From Blastococcus sp. (GTDB lineage Bacteria; Actinomycetota; Actinomycetes; Mycobacteriales; Geodermatophilaceae): a DNA stretch of 49,604 nucleotides. Positions 8,842 through 29,418 of the stretch are shown here, piece after piece. The stretch covers positions 1-49,604 of the forward strand of contig JAOPWH010000095.1 of assembly GCA_025965795.1 (NCBI GenBank), given 5' to 3'. Positions within the stretch are counted from its first letter, which is position 1; every line of letters begins with the position of its first letter. Both the position numbers and the translations under genes were made by a program. Under the pieces are notes generated by a model, which saw only the letters and a list, made by a program, of their open reading frames with translations, did no database searches and had not been told where the DNA came from.

Positions 8842-8868
8842 AGTGAGTGAATCTAAAGGGTGTAACTC

Positions 8869-9192
8869 TCAAAGCACAGCACCTGGCGCAGATGTCTGTC
8901 TTTGTCGCGCAGATCGCAGTCTGCGAAGGCGCCGGACGAGCAGCGGATCGGCCTCCAACGCCTCGGACCGGTCGACCAGGGCGTTGAGCACCTGGTAGTA
9001 GCGCGTGGGAGTGACGTCGAACTGGTCGCGGATGGCCATCTCCTTGGCGCCGGCGCGACGCCACCACTGCCGCTCGAAGGTGAGCATCTCGTGCTCTCGC
9101 TGGGACAGCCGCAGCGGCGCGACCTGCACGGACGCCCCCCGGGACCCGTCGGCCCGGGGTGGGGAGACCACCGGGGGCGGATCGCTGATCAT
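8869..9192 (-). CDS. DUF3263 domain-containing protein
   Basis: LSQREHEMLTFERQWWRRAGAKEMAIRDQFDVTPTRYYQVLNALVDRSEALEADPLLVRRLRRLR is diagnostic of DUF3263. Confidence 0.9.
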   Translation of the reverse strand: MISDPPPVVSPPRADGSRGASVQVAPLRLSQREHEMLTFERQWWRRAGAKEMAIRDQFDVTPTRYYQVLNALVDRSEALEADPLLVRRLRRLRSARQRQTSAPGAVL

Positions 9193-9319
9193 GGCTCGTC
9201 ACGCTCCTGCCGTACGGGCGACCCGGCGCTCCGGATCGGCTCGGTCCGAACCGTAGCCACGGGCACCGACAATTTCCGTCGCGCCACGTCCGCACCACCA
9301 GGAACAGCGACGACGGAGC

Positions 9320-10237
9320 TCAGACCCCCGCCGGAAGGGCCGCCCCGGCGGGACGACGACTCTGGCTCCGGGCGTGTCGCAGGCTGTCGGCCGTGAAGAC
9401 CGCCAGAGCCACCCAGACGATCACGAAGCCGACCAGGCGGGCCGGCGGCATCGCCTCGTCGTAGACGAAGACGCCGATCGCCAGCTGCATGAGCGGCGTG
9501 AGGTACTGCAGCAGGCCCACGGTCGACAGCGGGATCCGCCGGGCGGCCGCGGCGAAGAGCAGCAGCGGCACCGCGGTGGCGATCCCCGAGCTGGCCAGCA
9601 GGAGCGCGTGCCCGGCGCCGGCGTTGCCGAAGGTGCCGCTCCCGTTGCTGTGCAGCACTCCCAGGACGACGGCGGCCGGGATCGCCACCATCGCCGTCTC
9701 GACGAACAGCCCGGGAGCGGCCTCGACGCGCACCAGCTTCTTCATGACGCCGTACAGACCGAAGCTCGCGGCCAGCGCGAGGGCGATCCACGGCGGCCGT
9801 CCGTAGTCCACGGTGAGCACGGCCACGGCCACGGCCGCGATGCCGACCGCCACCCACTGCAGCCTCCGGAGCCGCTCGGAGAAGACGATGACGCCGAGCA
9901 GCACGCTGACCAGCGGGTTGATGAAGTACCCGAGCGAGGTCTCCACCACGTGTCCGGAGTTCACGCCGTAGACGAACACCAGCCAGTTGACGGCGATGAG
10001 CAGGCCGGCGCCGGCGAGCACGAGCAGCCGGCGGCGGTCGGTGATCAGTGCCCGCACCTGCGACCACCGGCGCAGGACGGTCAGCAGCAGCCCGATGAAC
10101 AGCAGCGACCACACCACGCGGTGCGCGACGATCTCGAGGCCACCGGCCGGTTCCAGGAGCGGGAAGTACAGCGGGAACAGGCCCCACAGCGCGTAGGCGG
10201 TGAGCCCGGATGCCATTCCCAGGCGTCGCTCGTCCAC
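9320..10237 (-). CDS. rarD: EamA-family transporter RarD
   Basis: MASGLTAYALWGLFPLYFPLLEPAGGLEIVAHRVVWSLLF...; RarD signature and about 10 TM segments. Confidence 0.93.
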   Translation of the reverse strand: MDERRLGMASGLTAYALWGLFPLYFPLLEPAGGLEIVAHRVVWSLLFIGLLLTVLRRWSQVRALITDRRRLLVLAGAGLLIAVNWLVFVYGVNSGHVVETSLGYFINPLVSVLLGVIVFSERLRRLQWVAVGIAAVAVAVLTVDYGRPPWIALALAASFGLYGVMKKLVRVEAAPGLFVETAMVAIPAAVVLGVLHSNGSGTFGNAGAGHALLLASSGIATAVPLLLFAAAARRIPLSTVGLLQYLTPLMQLAIGVFVYDEAMPPARLVGFVIVWVALAVFTADSLRHARSQSRRPAGAALPAGV

Positions 10238-10329
10238 GGCCGCACCGTACGCCCGCGCGCCTTGCTCCTACGGCCCCCTCCCGGAACCCGCCCTGAGCCT
10301 GCGCAGGGTGGGGAGGACGGGGCCCTCTG

Positions 10330-10761
10330 TCAGGCCGTCTGGATGTAGTCGACCATGTGCTTGCGCTCGTCCTCGAGTTCGTCGAGGCGTGCCTTCACGA
10401 CGTCGCCGATCGAGACGATGCCGGTCAGGACGCCGTCGTCGACCACCGGCACGTGCCGCACCCGGTGATCGGTCATGGTCTGCGCCAGCGCGTGCACGTC
10501 GGCATCCGACGAGCACGTGTGCACCTGCGCCGTCATCAGGCTGGAGACCGGGTCGGTGAGCAGCGCGGCGCCGCGCTCGTGCAGCCCGCGAGCGACGTCG
10601 CGTTCGGAGACGATCCCCTCCACCCGCCGGCCGTCGGAGGACACGACGAGCGCACCGATCCCGTGTTCGGCGAGCAGCGCGAGCGCGGCACGCACGCTCT
10701 CCGAACCGTCGATGGTGGCCACCTCATGGCCCTTGCGACGCAACAGCGATCTGATCTGCAC
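10330..10761 (-). CDS. CBS-domain pair protein
   Basis: Two CBS motifs: GIGALVVSSDGRRVEGIVSERDV and RVRHVPVVDDGVLTGIVSIGDVV. Confidence 0.92.
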   Translation of the reverse strand: MQIRSLLRRKGHEVATIDGSESVRAALALLAEHGIGALVVSSDGRRVEGIVSERDVARGLHERGAALLTDPVSSLMTAQVHTCSSDADVHALAQTMTDHRVRHVPVVDDGVLTGIVSIGDVVKARLDELEDERKHMVDYIQTA

Positions 10762-10894
10762 GGCGGCCTCCTCACGGCACGCTGCGGAGTCTCCCCCTCT
10801 GGCCGCCCGGACGGCAACGGAGACCCGATCGGGTGTCCCGGCCGCCGCGACCGGGTCCGTCGTCACCACCCGTGGACCGGCCTACCGTCGTGGT

Positions 10895-11287
10895 GTGCGC
10901 GCACGGCCCAATCCCCTGCAGTGGCTCTGGTACGCCCTCGGCGGCGGTCTGCCCCGCGCCCTCTCACCCTGGGTCCTCGCCGACACCACCGGACGCACCT
11001 GGATCTGGCGGCACCTGGCGCGGGCCGTCGTCCAGATGCTGCCAGTGGTGGCCGCCTGCCTCGTCGTCCCCGTTCCGCTCGCCTACCGGCTGTCGGCGGC
11101 GGTCGGCGGCCTGCTGCTCGGGCTGATGTTCTCCGTCGCGTTCATGACCGAGACCATCGAGCACCGCGTGGCCAAGGCCGGCTATCCACCGGGCACCGCG
11201 GCGCAGCTGCGCGCGGAACGGGCCGAGCGGGACCGGGTCGAGCGCCACTCCACCTACCGCAGGGACGGCGCCGGCAGCTTCGACTGA
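10895..11287 (+). CDS. DUF5313-like small membrane protein
   Basis: VRARPNPLQWLWYALGGGLPRALSPWVLADTTGRTWIWRHLAR... with two TM segments. Confidence 0.7.
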   Translation: MRARPNPLQWLWYALGGGLPRALSPWVLADTTGRTWIWRHLARAVVQMLPVVAACLVVPVPLAYRLSAAVGGLLLGLMFSVAFMTETIEHRVAKAGYPPGTAAQLRAERAERDRVERHSTYRRDGAGSFD

Positions 11288-15707: not shown

Positions 15708-17249
15708 ATGAGGATCGCCCTGGTGACCGAGGGCACCTACCCCACCGTGACCGGCGGCGTCAGCACCTGGTGCGACCAACTGCTGCGCGGCATGCCGGAG
15801 CACGACTGGTCGGTGGTGGCCCTGACGGCGACCGGCTCCGAGCCCGTCGTCTGGGAGCGGCCGCCGTCGGTCAGCTCCGTCGTCCTCTTCCCCATGTGGG
15901 GCGAGCTGCCCCCGCCGGCCCGCCGCGGCCGGGGCGGCAGCGACCTCCTGCTCGGCGTGCAGCAGGCGCTGCACGCACTCTGGGACGCCGCGCTGGCCCC
16001 CGACGGTCCCGACGCGGTGAGCCAGGCCCGCACAGCGCTCCGCACGCTCGTCCTGCTCTCCCGCGACGTCCGGCTCGGCAGCCTGCTCACGGCCCGGGGG
16101 TCGGCGTCGGCGGTCCTGACGGCGTGGCGCGACCGGTGCGCCGACCAGCCCCGGATGAGCGTCGCCGAGGCAGTCACCGCCTCGATCGTCGTCGACCGCA
16201 TGCTCTCGGTCGTCGATGCCCCCCTCGGCCCGGTCGACGTCGTGCACGCGGCCAGCAACGGCGCCGCGGCGCTGGTCGGCCTGGCCGCGCGCTGGCGGCA
16301 GGGCACTCCCCTCCTCCTCTCCGAGCACGGCGTCTACCTGCGCGAGCGCTACCTCGCCCTCGACGACGGCGGGTACTCGTGGGCCGAGCGACGGGCAGTC
16401 ACCGCCGTCGTCCGCCGGATCTGCGAGGTCGCCTACCGCGAGTCCGAGCAGGTGCTGCCCGTCTCGGACTTCAACCAGCGCTGGATCCGGCGACTGGGCG
16501 GCGAGCTCACCCGAGCGGTCACCATCCGCAACGGCGTGCAGCCGGACCTGTACGAGCCGGTGGGCGACGAGCCCGAGGTCCCCACGCTGAGCTTCGTGGG
16601 CCGGATCGACCCGCTCAAGGACCTGCACACCCTGGTCCGGGCGTTCGCCCTGCTGCGGGACCGGCTGCCCGCCGCGCGGCTGCGGCTGTTCGGTCCGGTC
16701 CCCCTCGGCAACGAGGCCTATCGCGACAGCGTCGTCGACCTCGTCGAGGAGCTCGGCGTCACCGAGGCGGTCACGTTCGAGGGCCCGAGCGACGGCAGCC
16801 GGCCGGCGATCGCGGCCGGATCGGTCGTGGTGCTCTCCAGCATCTCCGAGGGTCTGCCGTTCACCGTGATCGAGGCGATGATGTGCGGTCGCGCCACGGT
16901 GAGCACCGACGTCGGCGGAGTGGCCGAGTGCCTGGACCCCGAGGGGCGCACCGGCGTCGTCGTCCCGGCCCGCGACCCGCAGGCCTTCGCCGACGCGTGC
17001 CTCGACCTGCTCACCGACACCGACCGCCGACGTGCGATGGCCGCTGCCGCACGGGAGCACGCGCTCGCCACGGCGACGCTGGACCGGGCCCTGTCGACGT
17101 ACCGCTCTGTCTACGACGCGGCCGCCGCGTCGGCGACCCCGCAGCTTCCCTCGCACGTCCGGACCGCCGCCCGGCCCTCCCGGATCGTCCCGCGCGATCC
17201 CGCTGATCTCGTCCTGCTCGACTCCCAGCTCGCCGGAGGCACCCGATGA
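15708..17249 (+). CDS. PelF-like GT4 family glycosyltransferase
   Basis: MRIALVTEGTYPTVTGGVSTWCDQLLRGMPEHDW (PelF-like N-terminus), LSEHGVYLRERY, FVGRIDPLKDLHTLVRAF, SISEGLPFTVIEAMMCGRATVSTDVGGVAE. Confidence 0.93.
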   Translation: MRIALVTEGTYPTVTGGVSTWCDQLLRGMPEHDWSVVALTATGSEPVVWERPPSVSSVVLFPMWGELPPPARRGRGGSDLLLGVQQALHALWDAALAPDGPDAVSQARTALRTLVLLSRDVRLGSLLTARGSASAVLTAWRDRCADQPRMSVAEAVTASIVVDRMLSVVDAPLGPVDVVHAASNGAAALVGLAARWRQGTPLLLSEHGVYLRERYLALDDGGYSWAERRAVTAVVRRICEVAYRESEQVLPVSDFNQRWIRRLGGELTRAVTIRNGVQPDLYEPVGDEPEVPTLSFVGRIDPLKDLHTLVRAFALLRDRLPAARLRLFGPVPLGNEAYRDSVVDLVEELGVTEAVTFEGPSDGSRPAIAAGSVVVLSSISEGLPFTVIEAMMCGRATVSTDVGGVAECLDPEGRTGVVVPARDPQAFADACLDLLTDTDRRRAMAAAAREHALATATLDRALSTYRSVYDAAAASATPQLPSHVRTAARPSRIVPRDPADLVLLDSQLAGGTR

Positions 17250-18559
17250 CCGCTGTCCGCCCGATTCCGGCCCTCCACGACGCCGCTTCCCTCCCGGAAC
17301 TGCCAGGCGGTGCTGTGGACGAACTGGAGGTCGCGGCCCGCCTCGAGGCCTCCGGTCTCAGCGACCGTTCCGCTCGGTCCCGTCATGGTGCGGCCGACGT
17401 CTTCGCCCTGGCCGCCGTGCTGCACGGCAGCCGGTCCGAGCCGCGCCCGGAGGGCCGGCGGCGCCCGACACCCTCAGGGCTGCTCGACTCGCTGCGCCGC
17501 GCGTTGCTGCTCGTCGGCGGCGTGCTGCTGGCCGCCGCCGCGCTCGACGTCATGAACCTGTCGACCGGCCTGGTGTGGAGCGTGGGCGTCACCGGCTGGG
17601 TGGGGGGCCAGTTCGTGTCCTCGATCGCCTGGAGCCGGCTCGGCCGCGGGCAGGGACCCGAGGGGCTGCGCCGGGCGGCGTCGGCGGCACTTCTGGTGAT
17701 GGTCGTGGCGGCGCTGGCCCCGGCTCTGCTGTCGGTCTCGACCCCTGGCGCGGCCAGCACGCTGCTCTGCCTCGTCTGGGCGGCCTACGCCAGCGCCGTG
17801 TCGCTGCTGGTCTGCGCCGACCGCACCAACGCGGCGCTGGCGACCGTGCTCGTCGGACTGGTGCCCGTCTCGGTCGCCCTGGCGGCCGGGCAGGCGTGGT
17901 CGGCCGCCACGATCCTGATCTCCGCCGCTGCCGCGGCCGGCGCGGTGATCGTCCTCGCGGTGCGACTGCTGCGCACGGCCGGCCGCCCGGCTCTGCCCGA
18001 GCGGAGTGACTGGCGCGCTTCGGCTCCCGCCGCCGCCCAGGCCGCTTTCCTCGCTGCCAGCCTGCTGGCACTGCTGCAGACCGTCCCGGTCGAGAGCACC
18101 ACCCCGCTCGTCGTCGCGAGCGTCGTCGGGGCCGCCGCCGCCGACCCGGCCATCGTCCTGCTCCGGGCCCGGCTGCGCTGGTCGGCCGCCCGGCTCTACC
18201 GCCTCTCCGCCGCCGCCCGTTCGGCCCGGCGCGCCGCGGTCATGGCGGCCGCGGGCACCACGCTCGCCTCGGCGCTGGCCGCCGTGACCGTGTTCCTGGT
18301 CCTCCGAGCAGGCACGCCCGACTGGCCGGCCACGGTGGTCACCGCGGCGGCCTTCACCGCCCTTGCGACGACGTCGGCGGCGCTCACCGCCTTCGGTGCT
18401 CCCTGGCGCGCCGTGCTGGCGGCCGCGCTCACCGCCGCCTACGCCCTGCCCGCCCTGCTCTCGGCCACCCTGGCCACCGCGGTCCTGCTTCCCGTCGCCC
18501 TCGTCGGCGCGGTGACCTTGCTGCTGTACCGGGTGTCCGACCCGCGGGTCGTCGCGTGA
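17246..18559 (+). CDS. Polytopic membrane protein, candidate polysaccharide exporter/flippase of the operon
   Basis: 437 aa, about 90-aa N-terminal region then about 10-12 hydrophobic segments; ATGA overlap with the GT4 gene. Export role inferred from context only. Confidence 0.75.
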   Translation: MTAVRPIPALHDAASLPELPGGAVDELEVAARLEASGLSDRSARSRHGAADVFALAAVLHGSRSEPRPEGRRRPTPSGLLDSLRRALLLVGGVLLAAAALDVMNLSTGLVWSVGVTGWVGGQFVSSIAWSRLGRGQGPEGLRRAASAALLVMVVAALAPALLSVSTPGAASTLLCLVWAAYASAVSLLVCADRTNAALATVLVGLVPVSVALAAGQAWSAATILISAAAAAGAVIVLAVRLLRTAGRPALPERSDWRASAPAAAQAAFLAASLLALLQTVPVESTTPLVVASVVGAAAADPAIVLLRARLRWSAARLYRLSAAARSARRAAVMAAAGTTLASALAAVTVFLVLRAGTPDWPATVVTAAAFTALATTSAALTAFGAPWRAVLAAALTAAYALPALLSATLATAVLLPVALVGAVTLLLYRVSDPRVVA

Positions 18560-19233
18560 CGGCCGCCCGGGCCGCACTGCCCTGGTACGTGCATCCGGCC
18601 GAGGACCCCGGCGCCTGGCGGCAGCTCGCGCTGCAGACGCCGCGACCGTCCTTCGTGGTCGTCAACGTGCACAACGGTCCCGGCGAACCCGGGAACCCCT
18701 GGTACCCCGAGGCGCTCACGCAGCTGCGGGGCACCCGTATCGTCGGGTACATCGACCTGGCCTACGGCGAGCGACCCGTCGCCGAGGTCGTCGCGGACGT
18801 CGCGACGTGGCTGGACGTCTACCGCGTCGGTGGCGTGATGCTGGACCAGTTCCCCGCCGACGCGGCCAGCACCCGGCGCTGCCTCGAGTACGTGACCGCC
18901 GCCCGCCGGGCCGGTGCCGGCTTCGTGGTCGGCAATCCCGGCGTCGTCCCCGCACTGGGGCACCTGGCGTTGCTCGACGTCACCTGCGTCTTCGAGGGGA
19001 CGGCGGAGGCCTACTCGCGGTTCACGCCGCCGCCCGCCCTCAGCCGGGTGCCGCGGAACCGGGTGTGGCACCTCGTGCACAGCTGCCCGCCCGACGAGCT
19101 CGCCGAGGTGACCGCCCGGGCGGAGCGGCTCGGCGCCGGCCACGCCTTCGTCACCGACCGGTCGATGCCGCACCCGTGGGGCGGGTTCCCGATGGCCGGC
19201 ACGCCGGTGACTGCGGGACGAGCCGCATCGTGA
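18556..19233 (+). CDS. Spherulation-specific family 4 (Spherulin4; GH135/Sph3-like) protein
   Basis: WYVHPAEDPGAWRQL...FVVVNVHNGPGEPGNPWYPEALTQLRGTRIVGYIDLAYGERP...VGGVMLDQFPAD...VFEGTAEAY; GTGA overlap with previous gene. Confidence 0.88.
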   Translation: MTAARAALPWYVHPAEDPGAWRQLALQTPRPSFVVVNVHNGPGEPGNPWYPEALTQLRGTRIVGYIDLAYGERPVAEVVADVATWLDVYRVGGVMLDQFPADAASTRRCLEYVTAARRAGAGFVVGNPGVVPALGHLALLDVTCVFEGTAEAYSRFTPPPALSRVPRNRVWHLVHSCPPDELAEVTARAERLGAGHAFVTDRSMPHPWGGFPMAGTPVTAGRAAS

Positions 19234-20126
19234 CCGTGCTCGGAAGGGCCGGCGGTGCGTTGCTCGCGCTGCTCCTGCTCGGCGGGTGCACGGCCGTGCA
19301 CCCGTCCGGACGGCCCGCCGGGAATCGGGCGGCCACGGCTTCACCGGCGACGTCCGCGGCGCTGCCCACCGCCACGCCCACCACCACGCCCACCACCACG
19401 CCCACCGCCACGCCCACCCCGGCCGACGCGTGGCGTCCCGCACCCGGAACCACCTGGCAGTACCAGCTCAGCGGCGACCTGGACCTGTCGGTGGACGCCG
19501 AGGTCTACGACGTCGACTGGCAGGAGACGACCGCCGCACAGGTGGCGGAGCTGCACCGAACCGGGCGGCGGGTGGTCTGCTACCTCAACGCGGGCGCGCA
19601 CGAGCAGTGGCGCCCCGACGCCGCCGACTACGCGGCCGACGTGCTCGGGAAGCCGCTGGACGGCTGGCCCGGCGAGCGCTGGGTCGACGTCCGCCGCCTC
19701 GACGTCCTCCTTCCGCTGGTGTCCCGGCGGATGGACATCTGCGCGGCCAAGGGCTTCGACGCCGTGGAGCCGGACAACGTCGACGGGTACGCGAACGAGA
19801 CCGGCTTCCCGCTCACCGCCGCAGACCAGCTCGCCTTCAACACGGCGGTGGCGTCGCTGGCGCACGAGCGTGGCCTGTCGGTCGGGTTGAAGAACGACGT
19901 CGAGCAGGTCGGCGCGCTCGAGCCGGTCTTCGACTTCGCCGTCAACGAGGAGTGCCTGGTCTACGACGAGTGCGCGGCCTACCGCCCGTTCATCGACGCG
20001 GGCAAGGCGGTGCTGCACGTGGAGTACGCCGAAGGCACCCCCCGGCTGTGTGAGGCCGTCTCCCCAATTCGGCTGAGCTCGATTCTGAAAAACCTGGATC
20101 TGGACGCCGCGCTGCGACACTGCTGA
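19230..20126 (+). CDS. GH114 endo-alpha-1,4-polygalactosaminidase-like lipoprotein
   Basis: Lipobox LLLLGGCTA; TWQYQLSGDLDLSVDAEVYDVDW, VCYLNAGAHEQWRPD, GFDAVEPDNVDGYANETGFPLTAADQLAFN, LSVGLKNDVEQV, FAVNEECLVYDEC, GKAVLHVEY. Confidence 0.94.
   Translation: MTVLGRAGGALLALLLLGGCTAVHPSGRPAGNRAATASPATSAALPTATPTTTPTTTPTATPTPADAWRPAPGTTWQYQLSGDLDLSVDAEVYDVDWQETTAAQVAELHRTGRRVVCYLNAGAHEQWRPDAADYAADVLGKPLDGWPGERWVDVRRLDVLLPLVSRRMDICAAKGFDAVEPDNVDGYANETGFPLTAADQLAFNTAVASLAHERGLSVGLKNDVEQVGALEPVFDFAVNEECLVYDECAAYRPFIDAGKAVLHVEYAEGTPRLCEAVSPIRLSSILKNLDLDAALRHC
19364..19411 (+). repeat. 12-bp tandem repeat (x4) encoding a Thr/Pro linker
   Basis: GCCCACCRCCAC repeated four times, encoding TATPTTTPTTTPTATP between lipobox and GH114 domain. 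Confidence 0.85.
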
Positions 20127-20127
20127 G

Positions 20128-21732
20128 GTGCTCACCCGACGCGCTCACCTGCGCGAACTCGCGCTGCAGACCGGTTCCCCGGCTGCCGGCGTGATGCTGC
20201 GCGCCGACGGCTCGGTCGTCGTCCGGTGGGCCAACGTCGCCATGAGCGACCTGCTGGGACTTCCGGCCGGTTCCGCCGCGACGGAGCTGACCGATCTGCT
20301 CGACGACGACGGCGCCACGCGGCTGGCCTCGGTGGCCCGCGACGTCGTCCGGCTGCAGGGGCAGCGCGCCAGCCTCCAGGTGACCCTCCCCGGTGATCCG
20401 GAACCGCTCTGGCTGCACCTGCTGGCGCAGCGGCCGGCCGGTCTCCGCCGGATGTCCGGCACGGCCGACATCGCCGCCGTCCTGCACGCCGAACCGGCAC
20501 CGCGGCCGACACCTGCCGGTTCGCCCGAGGCGCCCGAGAGCGCCGCCCAGCTCAGCGAGCGCCTCGGCGCCGCCCTGCTCCTCCTGCGCCGCCGCCCCGG
20601 GCGGGTGGCGGTGGCCGTCGCAGTGGTCCGCCTTCCCGGGCCCGACGGGCCCGAGCGGCCGTCGTCGCCGACCCTCGCCGACCTGGCCGACCGGGTGCGG
20701 CGGGCGGCGCGCGAGACGGACACGGTCGTGCACCTGGACGGCGGTCGGCTCGCCGTGGTGGCCGAGGACTCCGGCGACGACGGCGGGATCGTCATGGCCC
20801 GCCGGCTCCTCGCCGTCCTCCACCGCCCGCTCGCCGACGGGGTCCGCCCCGTCGTCAGCGCCGCGGTGGTCGAGGTGGGCGATCCCGACACCGACCCCGA
20901 CACCCTGCTCGCCTCGGTCGTCGAGGGTGCGGCCGCCCGCGCCTCGGGCAGCGGTCTCACCGTGCTCGCGCCGTGGGACCGGCACTCCGACGCTCGCCCG
21001 GTTCCCGCCGACCGCACCGCTGGCTCGGCGCAGATCCGGGCCGCGCTGGACTCCGGGCGCTTCGTGCTGAACTCGCGGCCGGTCCTGGTCCCCGGCAGCG
21101 GACCGGCGGCGGGGCTGCGCTGCGACGTCCCCGGGGCGCGGGTCCGCGGAACCCTGGTGGAGGTCAGCACCGTCGACGCCGGCGTGCCCAGCCCCGTGCG
21201 TGTCGACGCCCCGGGTCTCGCCGTCGCGCTGGACCGGTGGGCCGTGGCCCGAGTGGTCGACGTCGACGCCGACGTGGTCGTGGTCCGCCTGCAGCCGGGT
21301 GGTGCTCTGGTGTCGCTCCGCGAGGAGATCACCGCCCTGCAGCGGTCCCGCCCCGAGACGCGGCTGGTCCTCGGTGTGCCCGAAGGGCGCCTGGACGAGG
21401 CCGTCTCCGCACAGCGCGCCGCGCTGCACGAGCTGGCCGGACTCGGCGTCGGCCTCGGTGTGCTCGACTGGACCGGCCGGGTGGACGTCCGGACCCTGGT
21501 GCGCTGGCGCGTCGGGATCGTGGAGCTGTCCCCCGACTGGCACCGCGACGTCCTCCTCACCGAGGGCGCGGCCATGATCACCGGCCTGGTGGCCGGACTC
21601 CGCGCCGGGCTGGGCGACGCCGCCGTCGTCCTCATCGACCGACCCGACGACGCGACCGTGGCGTCCGCGCTCGCCGACTGCGGCGTCCGCTGGACCGCCC
21701 CGGCCCGACGCTCCGTGGCCGGCGTGGCATGA
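20128..21732 (+). CDS. PAS-like plus degenerate GGDEF plus degenerate EAL protein, putative c-di-GMP sensor/effector
   Basis: GVMLRADGSVVVRWANVAMSDLLGLPAG (PAS); RETDTVVHLDGGRLAVVAED aligns to RxxD-x5-GGDEF with GGDEF lost and RxxD kept; AQIRAALDSGRFVLNSRPVLVPGSG...GLRCDVPG aligns to an EAL N-terminus with EAL lost. Confidence 0.8.
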   Translation: MLTRRAHLRELALQTGSPAAGVMLRADGSVVVRWANVAMSDLLGLPAGSAATELTDLLDDDGATRLASVARDVVRLQGQRASLQVTLPGDPEPLWLHLLAQRPAGLRRMSGTADIAAVLHAEPAPRPTPAGSPEAPESAAQLSERLGAALLLLRRRPGRVAVAVAVVRLPGPDGPERPSSPTLADLADRVRRAARETDTVVHLDGGRLAVVAEDSGDDGGIVMARRLLAVLHRPLADGVRPVVSAAVVEVGDPDTDPDTLLASVVEGAAARASGSGLTVLAPWDRHSDARPVPADRTAGSAQIRAALDSGRFVLNSRPVLVPGSGPAAGLRCDVPGARVRGTLVEVSTVDAGVPSPVRVDAPGLAVALDRWAVARVVDVDADVVVVRLQPGGALVSLREEITALQRSRPETRLVLGVPEGRLDEAVSAQRAALHELAGLGVGLGVLDWTGRVDVRTLVRWRVGIVELSPDWHRDVLLTEGAAMITGLVAGLRAGLGDAAVVLIDRPDDATVASALADCGVRWTAPARRSVAGVA

Positions 21733-22391
21733 GCCGCCGGACCGCTGCTCCGCGGGCGCCGTTCCGCGACGGCGTCTCCTCCGACGTCCGCCACGACCTG
21801 CGGCACGAGCTCGCGACCCTGCGCACGCTGTTCGCCGTCGCACAGGACGAACCGGACCTCGACCCGACCGAGCTGCGCTCGCTGCTGGCGACGGCGACCG
21901 GCGAGGTGTCCTACGCCCTGGACCTGCTGGACGCTGTGCCGGGAGCGCCCGTCCCTGCCCACCGCCCGACGGCTCCCGCCTCCCGGACCGACGTGGCCGG
22001 TGTGCTCTCCGACGCCGCCGCGGTCGTTCCCCGCGGCGTGGTCGTCGCCGTCGAGGCGACCGCTCCGCTCTGCGTCTCGATGGCCCGAACGGCCCTCGTC
22101 CGCGTGGTGCGCAACCTGCTGGGAAACGCCGTGGCCGCCATGAACGGCACCGGCACGGTGCTGCTGCGCGCCGAGCGCATCGGAGTCGACGGCCCCGTCC
22201 GCCTCGAGATCCACGACGACGGGCCGGGCCCGGGCCGCTCCGGCTTCTCCCGCAGCGGCGGGCAGGGGCTGACCGTCGTCCGCACGCTGGTGCTTTCCGC
22301 CGGTGGCTCCCTCGTGCTCGGCCGGTCCCCGTCGGGAGGCACGTGCGCGAGCGTGACCCTGCCCGCTCCACGACAGGAGTTCCGCCCGTGA
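21729..22391 (+). CDS. Small soluble sensor histidine kinase
   Basis: H-box-like DVRHDLRHELATLR, N-box VRNLLGNAVAAM, G-boxes DDGPGPG...GGQGLTVVRTL; no TM segment; ATGA overlap with previous gene. Confidence 0.88.
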   Translation: MSRRTAAPRAPFRDGVSSDVRHDLRHELATLRTLFAVAQDEPDLDPTELRSLLATATGEVSYALDLLDAVPGAPVPAHRPTAPASRTDVAGVLSDAAAVVPRGVVVAVEATAPLCVSMARTALVRVVRNLLGNAVAAMNGTGTVLLRAERIGVDGPVRLEIHDDGPGPGRSGFSRSGGQGLTVVRTLVLSAGGSLVLGRSPSGGTCASVTLPAPRQEFRP

Positions 22392-23056
22392 CCCGCGTCC
22401 TGCTCTGCGACGACCACGTCGTGTTCGCCGATGCCCTCGCCATGGCGGTCGCCGCCTCCGGCTACGAGGTGGTCGGCGTGACCCGCACGGTCGCCGAGGC
22501 CCTCGCCCAGGCACGGGCCACCCAGCCCGACGTCGTCGTCATGGATCTGCACTTCGAGCACGGGCCGGACGGGCTGACCGGGGTGCGCGCGCTGACCGGG
22601 GCGTCCCCGGCGCCACGGGTGCTGCTGCTCAGCGGCGCCGTGGACGGCCGGGTGCTCACCGAGGCGGTGGAGGCCGGCGCGGACGGCGTGGTCAGCAAGG
22701 CCGACCCGTTGGAGACCGTCCTGACCGCGGTCCAGCGCGTCGCGGAGGGGTCGTTCTACGCCGACCCCGAGCTGCTGCGCCGTTCGCTGCGGCCCTCCCC
22801 GGCCGACCTCGACCAGGTCCACCTCGCCGCCCAGTTCCTGACCCCCCGGGAGCGGGAAGTGCTCGGCCGGCTGGTCCAGGGATCGTCGACCAGGGATCTC
22901 GCCGAGGCAATGGGCGTCGGCGTGGCCACGGTCCGCACGCACGTGCAGTCGGTGCTGAACAAGCTCGGGGTCCGTTCCCGGCTCGAGGCCGTCACCGTCG
23001 CGGTCGCGCACGGTCTGCACGAACCGCCGCTCCGCCGCGTGCCGACACGGGTCTGA
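22388..23056 (+). CDS. NarL/LuxR-type response regulator
   Basis: REC VLLCDDHVVFADAL...DVVVMDLHFEHG; HTH LTPREREVLGRLVQGSSTRDLAEAMGVGVATVRTHVQSVLNKLGVRSRLEAV; GTGA overlap with kinase gene. Confidence 0.94.
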   Translation: MTRVLLCDDHVVFADALAMAVAASGYEVVGVTRTVAEALAQARATQPDVVVMDLHFEHGPDGLTGVRALTGASPAPRVLLLSGAVDGRVLTEAVEAGADGVVSKADPLETVLTAVQRVAEGSFYADPELLRRSLRPSPADLDQVHLAAQFLTPREREVLGRLVQGSSTRDLAEAMGVGVATVRTHVQSVLNKLGVRSRLEAVTVAVAHGLHEPPLRRVPTRV

Positions 23057-23097: not shown

Positions 23098-24093
23098 ATG
23101 ACCTGGCTCGTCACCGGCGGCGCCGGCTACATCGGCGCACACGTCACTGCGGCCATGCGGGAGGCGGAGCAGGAGGTCGTCGTCCTCGACGACCTCTCCA
23201 CCGGGGACGCGACCCGGATCCCGGGGACGACGGTCGTGCAGGGCAGCACCCTGGACGGCGAGCTGCTGGCGCGCACCATCCGCGAGCACCGCGTCCAGGG
23301 CGTGGTGCACCTGGCGGCCAAGAAGCAGGTGGAGGAGTCGGTGCACCGGCCGCTCTACTACTACGAGCAGAACGTCGAGGGCCTTCGGGTGCTCCTCCAG
23401 GCGGCGACCGAGGGCGGCGTCGAGTCCTTCGTGTTCTCCTCCAGCGCCGCCGTCTACGGGGCGCCGGACGTCGAGCTCGTGCAGGAGGACACCCCCACCT
23501 CCCCGGTCAACCCCTACGGGACGACGAAGCTGATCGGTGAGCGGATGGTCGCCGACGTCGCCGCCGCGACCGGCCTGCGCTACGCCAACCTGAGGTACTT
23601 CAACGTCGCCGGGACGGCGGCCCCGGAACTCACCGACCGCGGGGTGTCCAACCTCGTGCCCATGGTGTTCCAGCAGCTGGACCGGCGGATGGCCCCGTTC
23701 ATCTTCGGCGACGACTACGACACCCCTGACGGCACGTGCGTCCGCGACTTCGTGCACGTCTCCGACATCGCCTCCGCGCACGTGGCGGCGGGCCGCGGCC
23801 TCACCGACGGGCGGGTGTCCGCCCTCACCGCCAACATCGGTCGGGGCGAAGGCGTCTCGGTGCGCGAGATGGTCACCACCATCCTGGCCGTCACCGGCAC
23901 GGCGGGTCAGGACTGGGCCGAACCGGTGGTCCGCCCACGCCGGGCGGGTGACCCGGCCCGGGTGGTGGCCTCGTCGGCGACCATCGAGCGCGAACTGGGC
24001 TGGCGGGCCCAATGCACCGTGGAGGACATGGTCCGCTCCGCCTGGGAGGGCTGGAGCAGCCGCAGCCCGGCGAGCGGCCCCGCTCGTACCTGA
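23098..24093 (+). CDS. galE: UDP-glucose/UDP-GlcNAc 4-epimerase (GalE family)
   Basis: MTWLVTGGAGYIGAHV, YGTTKLIGERM (YxxxK), LRYFNVAGT; SDR extended family epimerase. Confidence 0.93.
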   Translation: MTWLVTGGAGYIGAHVTAAMREAEQEVVVLDDLSTGDATRIPGTTVVQGSTLDGELLARTIREHRVQGVVHLAAKKQVEESVHRPLYYYEQNVEGLRVLLQAATEGGVESFVFSSSAAVYGAPDVELVQEDTPTSPVNPYGTTKLIGERMVADVAAATGLRYANLRYFNVAGTAAPELTDRGVSNLVPMVFQQLDRRMAPFIFGDDYDTPDGTCVRDFVHVSDIASAHVAAGRGLTDGRVSALTANIGRGEGVSVREMVTTILAVTGTAGQDWAEPVVRPRRAGDPARVVASSATIERELGWRAQCTVEDMVRSAWEGWSSRSPASGPART

Positions 24094-24137: not shown

Positions 24138-27100
24138 CTACTTCTTCGCCGTCACGGTCTCCGAGCGGGCCGAGTCGTCCCCGGCGCCGGCCGCGTTCAC
24201 CGCGGCCACCGTGACGGTGTAGGCCTTGCCGTTGGTCAGGTCCGACACCGTCACGCTGGTCGCGTTCCTCGACGCCTTGACCGTGCGCACCGGCTCCGAC
24301 CCGCTGCCGGTGAACACCGACACGAGGTAGCCGGTGATGTCCGACCCGCCGTCGTCGGCCGGCTCGGCCCACCGGACGGTCAGCCTGCGGTCGCCCGCCG
24401 TCGCCCGGACCGAGGTCGGTGCATCCGGCCGGACGGCGGGAGTGACCGAGTTGGACCGGTCCGACGCCGCGCCGATGCCCGCGGCGGACGCCGCGCTCAC
24501 CCGCACGGTGTAGGAGATGCCGTTGCGCAGGCCCGGCACCGTCGCGCGGGTGTCCCCGGCCCCGGCGGACGCCTGCTGCACCACCATGTTGCCCACGGAC
24601 ACCGACACGAGGTAGCCGGTGATCGGCGATCCTCCGGTCGACCGCGGCGCCGTCCAGCTGACCGACACCCAACCGTCGCCGGCCGTGGCCGCCCCGATCC
24701 TGGGCGCACCGGGCAGCGCCGCCGGCGCCAGCGGGATCACCGGGTTGGACGGGGCCGACCGGGCACCCGCGCCCGACCAGTTGAGCGCGGTCACCGTGAA
24801 CGTGTACGGAACGCCGTTGGTGAGACCGGAGACGGTGGCGCTGGTCGCCCACCAGCCCGCGAGCACCGTCCGGACGGCGGGCGTGCCCGCCGGGCCGGCT
24901 GCCGAGATCGCGTAGCCGAGCACGGGCGAGGTGCCGGGCTCCGCCGGCGCGGTCCAGTTCACCGTCGCCGTTCCGTTGCCCGGCGTCGCGGTTCCGATCG
25001 TCGGTGCACCGGGCGTCGCCGCCCCGGCCGCCGGGACGACGCGGGCGGAGCGGCCCGACTCCGCGCCGGCCCCGTTCGCGTTGACCGCCGCGACCGTGAA
25101 GGTGTAGCCGGTGCCGTTGACCAGGCCACCGACGGTGGCCCGGGTCGCCGAGGCGGGCACCTGCAGCGTGACGGCCGGGGTGCTCGCCGTGCCGGCGTAG
25201 GCACGCACGACGTAGCCCGTGAGCGCGCTGCCTCCGGTGTCGGTCGACATCGTCCAGCCCACCGAGGCGGACGCGTTGCCCGGCGTGGCCTCACCGATGG
25301 CCGGCACGCCGGGCACGGTCGAGGGGGTCACGGTGCCCGACCGGCCGGAGGCCGCACCCAGGCCGGCCGCGTTGCGGGCCGACACGGCGAAGCTGTAGGA
25401 AGTCCCGTTGCGCAGGCCGGTCACCGTGGTGGCGGTCGTGGCCGCCTCCACCGTGCGGACGGCCGTCGTCCCGGTGCCTTCGAAGACCGACACCACGTAT
25501 CCGGTCACGGGCGTTCCCCCGGTCGACACCGGCGCGGTCCACGCCAGCGCGGCAGCGGCGTTCCCCGCCGTCACCGAGGTGATCGCGGGCGCACCCGGCA
25601 CCGTCATCGGCGCCAGGGGCGTCACCGCGGACGCGGCGGAGGCGGTACCCAGGCCGGCCGTGTTCCGTGCCGCGACGGTCACCGTGTACGCGGTGCCGTT
25701 GACGAGCCCGGTCAGCTGCGCGGACGTGGCGGTGGCCGCGGCCTCGACCGTGCGCACGGCCGTCGTCCCGGTGCCCTGGTAGACCGACACCACGTAGCCG
25801 GTGACCGGTGCACCGCCGGTTTCTGCGGGAGCGGTCCAGGCCACCGTCGCCGAGGCGTTGCCCGGCGTCACTGACGTGATCGTCGGCGCCCCGGCCACCG
25901 TCGCCGGCGTCACGAGGGCCGAGCGGGCCGAGTCCGGCCCGGTGCCGACGGAGTTCACCGCGGCCACGGACAGGCTGTAGGCAGTGCCGTTGGCCAGGCC
26001 GGGGACGTCGGCCGTGGTCGCCGGGGCGGCCACGTCCACCGTGCGCACCGCCGCCGTGCCGGTGCCCTGGAAGACCGACACCCGGTAGCCGGTGATCGCC
26101 GCTCCGCCGTCGGCGGCCGGAGCCGTCCACGTGACAGCGGCGGTCGTGTTGCCGGCGATCGCGGTCCCGAGGACGGGAGCGCCGGGCACCGTGGCCGGGG
26201 CGGCCGGCGTCACGCTGGCCGACCGGCCCGAGGCCGGGCTCGTGCCCACGGAGTTCACCGCGGCGACCGTGAAGGTGTACGGGGTTCCGTTGGTGAGGCC
26301 GGCGATCTGCGCCGCCGTCGCACCGGCGACCGGAACGGTGCGCGCCGGCGTGGCGGAGTCGCCCTCGTAGACGGAGACGACGTAGCCGGTGACCGGCGAG
26401 CCGCCGTCGAGGACGGGGGCGGTCCAGGTGAGCGTCGCCGCGGCGTTGCCGGCGGTCGCCGTGCCCATCGTGGGCGCGTCGGGAGCGATCACGGTGGAGG
26501 TGCCAATGTAGCCGCCCCGGGGAGTGGTCGGCACCGCGGTGAGCGTGCCGGAGGTCCAGCCGGACAGCTCGCCGCCGTAGGACTCGAGGGACGCGCCGCT
26601 GACCTTCGTGCCGGCCGGCACCGTCACCGGAACCTGGGCGGCGGCGTCGGCGACGTGCACGCCGGAGCCGTCCAGGTACGCGGAGACGCCGTCGGCGGCG
26701 GACTTCCAGCTCGACATCCGCGTCAGGACCTCGGACTGGGACCGGAGGTCGGTCCGGACGACGGGCGCGTTCGCGGCGTGCACCGCGCGGTAGGAGTCGA
26801 GGACGCCCTGCACGACCGGGTAGAGGATCCCGTCCTCGGCCAGGTTGGACTGGTGGGCGTAGAACGGCCGCGGGTCGTTGGACAGCACGCGCGACAGGGC
26901 GTTGCGTACCTCCAGCGGCTTGAGGTAGCTGTCGAAGCTGGCCCGGGCCTCCGCCGCGGAACCGGCCGCGAGGGGCGCGATGCAGGTGCTGGTGGCGGGG
27001 TTGGCCTCGCAGATGCCGCCGCCGCCGTTGGCGCGGCTGGTGTAGTACCAGTTGTACTCGTCGATCTGGTCGGAGAACGTGCCGGCGTTGTAGTAGATGT

Positions 27101-28616
27101 TCATCGGGTGCCGGGGCACGGTGACCGTCGCGGGGCCGGCGGAACGGGCGTTGGGCTCGCGCGACGCGTCGGAGGCGGTGTAGGCGACGCCCGCCTGCGC
27201 CAGGACCGGTCCGAGGAACGGATTGTCCGACGGCTGCTGCGGCAGCACGGCCAGCCCGGAGTGCTCTCCGGTGACCAGCTCGGTCCGGTCGAAGTCGGTG
27301 AAGCGCGCTGCGCCCCACGCCTGGTTCTGCTGGATCTGGGCGAGCAGGAATTCCGGCGCGGCCCAGTACGTGCCCGCCTGCAGGGCCCCGGCGACCTCCG
27401 GATCCTGACGCGGGGTGTCCGTCGGCGCGGTGGCGCAGCGCCAGGAGCCCCCGACGACGGTCGGCGCGATCTGGATGCAGCCCAGGTAGGGGTGGGTCGA
27501 GGTGTGGTTGACCCAGGAGAACTCGGCCTGTGCAGCGAGGAAGGCGTCGAGCAGCGGGTCGGGAGCGGTCGCCGGAAGTCCAGCGCCTTCCTTCCACACG
27601 GTGCTGCCGCCGCCGTTGAAGACCATGTCCAGCCGGAAGTCGTTGGCCTTCTGCCATGCGGCGAGCCGGCTGACGTCGGCGGCGGTCATGCGGATGTCCT
27701 TGGTGGTCACGGCCGGGTCGACGCAGTCGTCGCCGGGCGTGCAGTTGCCGGCCACGCTCCACCGGCCGTCGGGCAGGAAGACGTCGTCGACCTGGACGGC
27801 GAAGTAGTTGCGCTGGTGGCCCAGGTGGATGCCGCGGGTCATCCAGGTGACGACGCCGTGCGCGACGTCGTTCCACCACTGCATGGCCGGGTTGAAGGCT
27901 GCGGTGAGGACGAGCTCCTCCTGGCCGCCCTGGGCGTACACGCCTGCCAGGACGCCGCTGTTGGCGCCCACGGAGGCGGTCAGGAGGGGGGTGAACGTCT
28001 CTCCGGCGGGCAGCGGGGACAGCGGCTGGGCCAGGTACGCGTACACCTCACCGTTGGCCGGGTCGAAGTCGTCGATCGGCACCGACCCGTCGAGGTAGGC
28101 GAAGGGGCCGGACAGACCGGCCGGGGTGACCGTGACGGTGCCGCCGTCGAGGTTGCCCGCGTAGTTCGGTGCGCTGAGGCCCATGGCCGCGCCCGGCCAG
28201 TTGTACGCACTCACCTGACGCACCCCGTAGGCGCGCTCGTACGCGGTCAGGGCCGAGACCTCGGCCGCGCTCAGTCCACCACCGTCGTGATTGGGCACGA
28301 CCACGGCCTGGAACCGCCCGGTGGAGGTGGCGCCGTCGGCCAGGAAGGCCGCGTCGACGGCCGGCCGGCCGGCCGCGCCGATGTCGACCTTCGTGAACGG
28401 AACACCTTCGCGGAGCAGCTGGGTGGCGATCGCCTCCACCGACGGGTCGCCGTTGCTGACGACCAGGACCCGCAGGTTCACCCGCTGGTCGACGGCGGCC
28501 TGGGCGGTCCCGGGAGAGAGCGGCACGCTCACCAGCGCCAACGCCGTGACGGCGAGGACCGCCGCGCCGCGCCGCGCGAGCCAGGTACGGACGCGTGCCT
28601 GCATGGATGACCGCAT
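24138..28616 (-). CDS. Secreted Agd3-like (CE18-type) polysaccharide deacetylase with C-terminal fibronectin type III array
   Basis: Signal peptide; LRVLVVSNGDPSVEAIATQLLREGVPFTKVDI N-terminal module; GHQRNYFAVQVDDVFLPDGRW and WVNHTSTHPYLGC (D-D and HxxxH-type metal motifs), RPFYAHQSNLAEDG; then eight FnIII repeats. Confidence 0.85.
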   Translation of the reverse strand: MRSSMQARVRTWLARRGAAVLAVTALALVSVPLSPGTAQAAVDQRVNLRVLVVSNGDPSVEAIATQLLREGVPFTKVDIGAAGRPAVDAAFLADGATSTGRFQAVVVPNHDGGGLSAAEVSALTAYERAYGVRQVSAYNWPGAAMGLSAPNYAGNLDGGTVTVTPAGLSGPFAYLDGSVPIDDFDPANGEVYAYLAQPLSPLPAGETFTPLLTASVGANSGVLAGVYAQGGQEELVLTAAFNPAMQWWNDVAHGVVTWMTRGIHLGHQRNYFAVQVDDVFLPDGRWSVAGNCTPGDDCVDPAVTTKDIRMTAADVSRLAAWQKANDFRLDMVFNGGGSTVWKEGAGLPATAPDPLLDAFLAAQAEFSWVNHTSTHPYLGCIQIAPTVVGGSWRCATAPTDTPRQDPEVAGALQAGTYWAAPEFLLAQIQQNQAWGAARFTDFDRTELVTGEHSGLAVLPQQPSDNPFLGPVLAQAGVAYTASDASREPNARSAGPATVTVPRHPMNIYYNAGTFSDQIDEYNWYYTSRANGGGGICEANPATSTCIAPLAAGSAAEARASFDSYLKPLEVRNALSRVLSNDPRPFYAHQSNLAEDGILYPVVQGVLDSYRAVHAANAPVVRTDLRSQSEVLTRMSSWKSAADGVSAYLDGSGVHVADAAAQVPVTVPAGTKVSGASLESYGGELSGWTSGTLTAVPTTPRGGYIGTSTVIAPDAPTMGTATAGNAAATLTWTAPVLDGGSPVTGYVVSVYEGDSATPARTVPVAGATAAQIAGLTNGTPYTFTVAAVNSVGTSPASGRSASVTPAAPATVPGAPVLGTAIAGNTTAAVTWTAPAADGGAAITGYRVSVFQGTGTAAVRTVDVAAPATTADVPGLANGTAYSLSVAAVNSVGTGPDSARSALVTPATVAGAPTITSVTPGNASATVAWTAPAETGGAPVTGYVVSVYQGTGTTAVRTVEAAATATSAQLTGLVNGTAYTVTVAARNTAGLGTASAASAVTPLAPMTVPGAPAITSVTAGNAAAALAWTAPVSTGGTPVTGYVVSVFEGTGTTAVRTVEAATTATTVTGLRNGTSYSFAVSARNAAGLGAASGRSGTVTPSTVPGVPAIGEATPGNASASVGWTMSTDTGGSALTGYVVRAYAGTASTPAVTLQVPASATRATVGGLVNGTGYTFTVAAVNANGAGAESGRSARVVPAAGAATPGAPTIGTATPGNGTATVNWTAPAEPGTSPVLGYAISAAGPAGTPAVRTVLAGWWATSATVSGLTNGVPYTFTVTALNWSGAGARSAPSNPVIPLAPAALPGAPRIGAATAGDGWVSVSWTAPRSTGGSPITGYLVSVSVGNMVVQQASAGAGDTRATVPGLRNGISYTVRVSAASAAGIGAASDRSNSVTPAVRPDAPTSVRATAGDRRLTVRWAEPADDGGSDITGYLVSVFTGSGSEPVRTVKASRNATSVTVSDLTNGKAYTVTVAAVNAAGAGDDSARSETVTAKK
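24141..26490 (-). repeat. Eight tandem FnIII-domain repeats (protein-level), about 95-100 aa each
   Basis: Recurrent PGAPxIGxATxGNxxAxVxWTAPxxxGGxxxTGYxVSVxxG...VRTV...GLxNGTxYxFTVAAxNxxGxGxxSxRSxxVTP. Confidence 0.9.
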
Positions 28617-28631
28617 GGTGTTCTGCTCCCC

Positions 28632-28663
28632 CGATTACCGAATGTCGTCACCGACGGTAATCG
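28632..28663. promoter_or_regulatory. Perfect 9-bp dyad upstream of the Agd3-like start codon
   Basis: CGATTACCG-N14-CGGTAATCG, 16 bp upstream of the ATG at 28616. Confidence 0.45.
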
Positions 28664-28809
28664 CGGAAAAGGCCAGGTCCAGGGCGTTCTCCGGGCAGAG
28701 CACCCCAAGGGGGGAGGCGATGTGACGCAGCGTGTGCGGGCAATGACGGTGAGCGGATCATTGCTGGTGGTGGCGGCCTGCCGCAGGTATGCCGGTCCGC
28801 CACCTCGAC

Positions 28810-29340
28810 CTTCACCGCCGTCGCCGGCAGCCGCTCGGCATGCACGACGGCCTGCACCAGTCGCTGCGCCGCATGGGCCAGCACGACCTCGCCCGCTCCG
28901 GCCAGTCCCTGGAGCCGGGCGGCGAGGTTCACGGCATCGCCGACCGCGAGCCGTTGCCCGCCGTCCCCGGGGGCGGTGCCGGCGACCACCGCGCCGGTGC
29001 TCACCCCGATCCGTACCTGCAGGCGGACGCCGAACAGGCGGTCCAGCTCGCCGTTCAGTGCCTCCACGGCCGGGGGGATGGCCGCGGCGGCGCGCACCGC
29101 CCGCAGGGCGTCGTCCTCGCGCAGCATCGGGATGCCGAAGATCGCCAGGACCGCATCGCCGAGGAACTTCTCCACTGTGCCGCCGTGCCGCTTCACCGAT
29201 CGCTGCAGCACCGCGAAGTAGCGCTCCAGAACCGTGCGCACGGCTTCCGGGCCGAGCCGCTCACCCAGCTCGGTGGAGCCGACGAGATCGCAGAAGAGCA
29301 CGGTCACCGTCTTGCGGACTTCCCGGGCGGCCGACGCGCC
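28810..29340 (-). pseudogene. Truncated class III adenylate/guanylate cyclase domain (remnant)
   Basis: EVRKTVTVLFCDLVGSTELGERL...HGGTVEKFLGDAVLAIFGIP...VRIGVSTGAVVAG...RLAVGDAVNLAARLQ; no plausible start upstream (frame reads into tRNA-Thr) and homology ends abruptly at LPATAVK. Confidence 0.7.
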
Positions 29341-29342
29341 GG

Positions 29343-29418
29343 TGGAGCCGACGAGGGGACTTGAACCCCTAACCGCCCGATTACAAGTCGGGTGCGCTAC
29401 CAATTGCGCCACGTCGGC
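29343..29418 (-). tRNA. tRNA-Thr (TGT anticodon), encoded CCA
   Basis: GCCGACGTGGCGCAATTGGTAGCGCACCCGACTTGTAATCGGGCGGTTAGGGGTTCAAGTCCCCTCGTCGGCTCCA folds as a 76-nt cloverleaf with CTTGTAA anticodon loop. Confidence 0.97.

Follow-up and report, generated by a model that had tools for sequence, protein, structure and literature searches.

A CE18-type deacetylase with a C-terminal array of eight FnIII domains beside a Pel/GAG-like exopolysaccharide cluster in Blastococcus

The DNA analysed here (the window, i.e., the whole stretch of 49,604 nucleotides of contig JAOPWH010000095.1 from Blastococcus sp.) encodes a protein of 1492 amino acids whose N-terminal part shares its fold and its catalytic residues with Agd3, the CE18-CBM87 deacetylase of A. 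fumigatus, and whose C-terminal part consists of eight fibronectin type III (FnIII) domains. We consider it likely that this protein is a Sec-secreted CE18 de-N-acetylase of a Pel/GAG-like GalNAc polymer produced by the adjoining gene cluster, with the FnIII domains forming a stalk that serves as a spacer. The analysis shows the family, the fold, the catalytic residues, the cluster and a probable single origin of the tail; the substrate, the deacetylase activity and the role of the tail are what we infer.

Results

The deacetylase gene and the ends of its product

The deacetylase gene is one intact open reading frame with an ATG start (Table 1). Its GC3 of 0.94 is coding-like, there is a GGGGGAG sequence just upstream, and homologues with 60–67% identity are found in other genomes; thus, the open reading frame can be regarded as real. 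The sole hydrophobic stretch of the protein is aa 13–31, the core of the predicted signal peptide. The sequence ends with ...SETVTAKK, shortly after the last FnIII domain, which is itself complete, and it contains no LPXTG or other sortase motif, no lipobox and no terminal transmembrane helix, in agreement with the original prediction. That prediction also held the protein to be a secreted polymer-modifying enzyme, a view which is supported, and to which the adjoining GAG/Pel-like cluster, absent from the earlier account, adds further support.

Table 1. Positions of the deacetylase gene, its parts and the neighbouring cluster genes in the window
Feature	Position	Strand	Basis
PelF, GT4 glycosyltransferase	15708..17249	+	NF038011 172 bits, cut-off 100
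Polytopic membrane protein, about 10 predicted transmembrane helices, exporter-like position and topology	17246..18559	+	no Pfam match
Spherulin-4 family protein (PF12138), Sph3-like, without signal peptide	18556..19233	+	Pfam
GH114 glycoside hydrolase, lipobox LLGGC, Ega3-like	19224..20126	+	sequence, family match
Degenerate GGDEF/EAL-like protein, I-site-like RETD motif	20128..21732	+	motif; Pfam below cut-off
Small sensor histidine kinase	21729..22391	+	HATPase_c
NarL/LuxR-type response regulator	22343..23056	+	Pfam
GalE, UDP-sugar 4-epimerase, convergent with deacetylase gene	23098..24093	+	TIGR01179 317 bits, cut-off 262
CE18-type deacetylase (1492 aa) carrying the FnIII array at its C-terminus	24138..28616	-	ORF, Pfam, profile-to-Agd3, fold
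Eight FnIII domains, aa 711–1492	24141..26486	-	Pfam fn3 E=7.6e-104
Agd3-core C-terminal beta domain, about aa 641–704	26505..26696	-	Agd3 alignment; beta-rich in model
CE18 catalytic domain, about aa 266–640	26697..27821	-	profile alignment, model, Foldseek
CM4: H588 of HQSNL (= Agd3 H668, HQANL)	26853..26855	-	profile alignment
CM3: R502 (= Agd3 R613), arginine downstream of CM2	27111..27113	-	profile alignment
CM2: H371-x3-H375 (= Agd3 H510/H514; HxxxH metal ligands)	27492..27506	-	profile alignment
CM1: D277-D278 (= Agd3 D377/D378; base and metal ligand)	27783..27788	-	profile alignment; PMC7229062
CBM87-like N-terminal domain, about aa 46–265	27822..28481	-	PF25116 24 bits E=3.6e-5, below gathering 27.6; Agd3 alignment
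Sec signal peptide aa 1–40, cleavage near AQA-A	28497..28616	-	sequence, hydrophobic stretch
Likely ribosome-binding site GGGGGAG	28626..28632	-	sequence, just upstream of deacetylase ATG

The Agd3 core

The assignment of the protein to the Agd3 family is weak for the single sequence, but becomes firm with a profile. Scanned alone against Pfam, the sequence scores 9.5 bits with Agd3_CE and 24 bits with CBM87_Agd3, neither of which reaches the gathering score (27.6). This is a matter of profile sensitivity, as other members of the same alignment do match Agd3_CE: of the 18, 14 are recognised, the best with E=7e-38. The single-sequence Pfam scan of the core, being too weak, was replaced by a family profile built from an alignment of 18 homologues. 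With this profile there was one strong match in the PDB, Agd3 (6nwz, E=7e-37), in two stretches that between them span all three domains, from the CBM through the CE domain to the beta domain at the C-terminus; phmmer with the deacetylase sequence alone also gave 6nwz as the single significant PDB match (E=1.4e-6). An AlphaFold model of aa 41–704 (mean pLDDT 90.8, pTM 0.91) has the three domains of this fold, CBM87 preceding the catalytic domain and a beta-sandwich following it. The best PDB match found with the model by Foldseek, a comparison which the original prediction had proposed as its own test and which it passes, is again 6nwz (E=2.3e-29, TM 0.68/0.67). The deacetylase region had been placed at residues 40–720; its extent is nearer to aa 41–704.

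The catalytic residues of Agd3 were taken as named in PMC7229062 and compared via the 18-homologue profile alignment. All six are matched in the Blastococcus protein (D277, D278, H371, H375, R502 and H588), so that its metal triad and its remaining catalytic residues coincide with those of Agd3, and the Asp-Asp pair of CM1 is invariant across the 18 homologues. The motifs first noticed in the sequence lie at these sites: VDDVF at aa 276–280, NHTSTH at aa 370–375 and HQSNL at aa 588–592.

The three residues with which the CBM87 of Agd3 has been shown to bind GAG, D242, W292 and W344, align with Y138, V191 and M245 or A244, respectively; two of them, W292 and W344, have no identical counterpart in the Blastococcus protein. 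There are aromatic residues close to the aligned positions, namely Y192 beside V191, and W247-W248 near M245/A244. The glycan-binding residues of CBM87 are only partly recognisable, and details of the substrate may differ from those of Agd3. Overall, the Blastococcus enzyme is like Agd3 in its three-domain fold, its full set of catalytic motif residues and its secretion, whereas it differs in a core identity of about 17%, in lacking an N-terminal serine-rich stretch, in the shifted aromatic residues of the CBM, and in the addition of eight FnIII domains at the C-terminus.

The FnIII tail

The eight tandem FnIII domains of the original prediction are borne out by Pfam fn3, which matches eight stretches, and the repeats start at aa 711, 810, 907, 1006, 1101, 1201, 1301 and 1396. 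The number of FnIII units following the CE18 core is eight in Blastococcus, seven in genome G056, four in G463, three in G787 and one in Kineococcus, where the single unit is below the Pfam cut-off and follows a proline-rich linker. Streptomyces-type and other CE18 members end at the core, or carry unrelated tails. A maximum-likelihood tree unites the five proteins with FnIII tails in a single clade (support 100/99), which implies that the tail probably arose once. Conservation is lower in the tail, at 43–50% identity, compared with 60–67% in the enzyme.

Downstream of its FnIII array, the G056 protein has a linker rich in Gly, Pro and Gln, then LAMTG, a transmembrane helix and RRRR, an ending which we take to be a sortase-type anchor. 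An anchor-like end of this kind favours a role of the tail as a stalk or spacer. A wall anchor after the array is absent in the proteins of Blastococcus, G463, G787 and Kineococcus, and, as the Blastococcus tail has no visible anchor, the enzyme may be retained by binding. Retention by binding would make sense for all four proteins if the array, instead of being a passive spacer, served in adhesion or glycan binding and so kept the enzyme on the matrix, the surface or partner proteins. This is a possibility of some weight, albeit the lesser one: the repeats vary in number from 1 to 8 and are weakly conserved, and the sortase-like anchor that closes the array of G056 is what one expects of a stalk. 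The stalk, or spacer, is the role that we prefer.

The neighbouring exopolysaccharide cluster

The deacetylase gene ends an exopolysaccharide cluster at 15.7–24.1 kb, the genes of which are on the plus strand and which probably makes a sticky sugar polymer that the deacetylase modifies. The set of genes known from GAG-type and bacterial agd3 clusters is complete here: a glycosyltransferase, a polytopic membrane protein, GH114, Spherulin-4 and an epimerase. The fungal galactosaminogalactan (GAG) cluster consists of the epimerase Uge3, the glycosyltransferase Gtb3, Sph3, Ega3 and Agd3 (PMC7229062); thus, each of its functions has a counterpart in the Blastococcus cluster. In both, the deacetylase is accompanied by a glycosyltransferase, Spherulin-4, GH114 and an epimerase, but the glycosyltransferase of Blastococcus is of the bacterial PelF type, whereas that of the fungus is the integral-membrane Gtb3.

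A deacetylase with the CE18 fold might act on a polymer other than Pel/GAG-type alpha-1,4-GalNAc, for example mixed Gal/GalNAc, GlcNAc or another amino-sugar polymer, which would be consistent with CBM87 glycan-binding residues that are kept in part, with a core identity to Agd3 of about 17%, and with GalE-type epimerases, which may supply UDP-Gal or UDP-GalNAc. We regard this as unlikely, as the adjoining PelF, GH114 and Spherulin-4 are all associated with alpha-1,4-galactosamine/GalNAc polymers, and a Pel/GAG-like polymer is preferred.

In the Spherulin-4 protein, the usual D-E pair reads D-Q, as it does in most actinobacterial homologues, so its catalysis may differ from that of Sph3. On the other side of the deacetylase gene, between it and a tRNA-Thr gene (29343–29418), there is a fragment of an adenylate/guanylate cyclase domain (28648–29361, minus strand), seemingly what is left of a larger regulator. 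The 3′ end of the tRNA-Thr was tried as an attachment-site repeat, and no second copy was found within the window.

Comparison with the Gram-positive Pel system of B. cereus (pelDEA_DAFG, PMC7112168; CE26, PMC13254593) reveals a common PelF (NF038011, 172 bits against a cut-off of 100), an extracellular polymer deacetylase with an N-terminal CBM, and c-di-GMP control by a degenerate GGDEF domain, which is putative in Blastococcus. The deacetylase of Blastococcus, however, is a secreted CE18 enzyme, whereas that of B. cereus is a CE26 enzyme held by an N-terminal transmembrane helix, and Blastococcus has separate GH114 and Spherulin-4 hydrolases. Searches of the cluster proteins against Pfam and NCBIfam gave no match to PelD, PelE, PelG or CE26 PelA_DA; the polytopic membrane protein is possibly a remote analogue of PelG.

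Distribution of the locus

A protein-based scan of a public genome collection gave three close relatives only, and wider genome searches were then used. CE18 is present in 3 of 115 genomes of the Geodermatophilaceae, and a close Spherulin-4 orthologue (at least 68% identity) is in the same three. PelF is above its cut-off in four of the 115, i.e., in all three genomes with CE18 and in one more; this fourth genome, with PelF at G004:C15:192779-194302 and without CE18, may use another deacetylase. Of 37 CE18 loci examined, a PelF-like glycosyltransferase is close by in 33 (scored by tblastn match, so that other GT4 genes could be included), Spherulin-4 in 27 and GH114 in 17; among the four loci without a PelF-like glycosyltransferase, three (L051, L099 and L103) are cut by contig ends. 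Thus, the CE18/Spherulin-4/PelF locus is accessory and travels as a unit. At one locus (L044, genome G355, about 9100–10900), the CE18 gene is disrupted by frame changes and stops. The Kineococcus locus L007 has two divergent, adjacent CE18-like genes (5378–7048, minus strand, and 7875–10580, plus strand), of which one is core-only (33% identity to the Blastococcus protein) and the other has the linker and FnIII.

The same gene set flanks CE18 in G056 and G463, in another order and orientation. These differences among Blastococcus, G056 and G463, together with the mere 44 bp that separate the stop codons of the deacetylase gene and the convergent galE, could be seen as traces of a truncation, in which an ancestral C-terminal sorting signal, similar to that of G056, disappeared as rearrangement of the cluster brought the end of the gene up against that of galE. 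Such a history appears improbable, because the last FnIII domain is complete and the proteins of G463, G787 and Kineococcus have no anchor either; it is no less simple to assume that G056 gained its anchor.

A candidate for c-di-GMP control

In the degenerate GGDEF/EAL-like protein, RETD lies five residues (the canonical distance) before DGGRL, which replaces GGDEF, and the orthologue in G463 has RDTD and APGRL at the same sites. Its Pfam scores fall below cut-off, its structure model has a pLDDT of 45, and the G056 cluster does not contain the gene. Going by the motif, the protein is possibly a candidate c-di-GMP receptor, analogous to PelD. Were this so, the locus might represent a distinct actinobacterial Pel/GAG-type system, combining CE18 on a long FnIII stalk of variable length outside the cell with a polymer synthase switched by a non-PelD c-di-GMP receptor (the GGDEF/EAL protein, the gene of which is part of the operon), a proposal that we consider speculative and rather doubtful.

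Discussion

The proposed function can be described as a series of steps. The protein would be a Sec-secreted, metal-dependent CE18 polysaccharide de-N-acetylase, in which the N-terminal CBM87-like domain and the central CE domain correspond to the Agd3 core. A GalNAc-containing polymer would be synthesised and exported by the products of the adjacent cluster (PelF, the membrane protein and GalE), the Agd3 core would strip acetyl groups from it, and the GH114 and Spherulin-4 hydrolases would trim it, the presumed outcome being a matrix that is both cationic and adhesive. The array of eight FnIII domains would be a later C-terminal addition of variable length, most likely an extended spacer which reaches through the wall or the matrix, and which in one relative may be fixed by a sortase signal.

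It is highly improbable that the enzyme should instead be placed in one of the neighbouring families, namely CE26 (PelA_DA), CE4 or that with the fold of the heparan sulfate N-deacetylases: NDST1 is second in Foldseek (E=1e-15) and the next, weak match of the profile (E=0.002), and CE4 deacetylases follow far behind with partial TM scores, but the E-value of Agd3 is better by about 14 orders of magnitude, in a match that extends across all three domains, the CM3 arginine is in the CE18-type position, CM4 is HQSNL, CE26 enzymes are absent from the list of matches, and the residue three after the catalytic His is Asn in Blastococcus, compared with Asp in a CE26 enzyme (H488, D491; PMC13254593). 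Membership of CE4 and NDST was thus set aside on E-values and motifs. The N-deacetylase domain of human NDST1 is alike in a distantly similar fold and in the HxxxH region, whereas NDST1 has a sulfotransferase fusion and heparan sulfate as its substrate, and its E-value is far weaker than that of Agd3. That NDST1 has the nearest fold after Agd3 is a hint that the CE18 and NDST deacetylases share an origin.

Bacterial homologues of Agd3, from Actinobacteria and others, were described in exopolysaccharide operons in 2020 (PMC7229062, Fig. 8). They resemble the Blastococcus locus in that a CE18 operon includes a glycosyltransferase, a polytopic membrane protein, GH114 and Spherulin-4; they differ in that the Streptomyces-type members examined end at the core, whereas the Blastococcus protein has the FnIII tail. 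The novelty relative to fungal Agd3 that the original prediction implied therefore holds for the tail, which looks undescribed, and not for actinobacterial Agd3 homologues in such clusters. The term “fibronectin type III” does not occur in the text of PMC7229062, and a literature search of partial coverage for FnIII and carbohydrate esterases in work on actinobacterial exopolysaccharides found no paper combining all of these. Within that coverage, we found no description of the subclade with FnIII tails, of the variation in its length or of the form with an anchor.

With the Blastococcus protein, the Agd3 family gains a form in which the number of FnIII units may set the reach or the placement of the enzyme. 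The actinobacterial cluster beside it is intact and offers a counterpart for each of the five genes of the fungal galactosaminogalactan cluster. Thus, it becomes directly testable whether such bacteria make a GalNAc matrix that is deacetylated in part, and whether adhesion of the matrix depends on where the deacetylase sits with respect to the wall.
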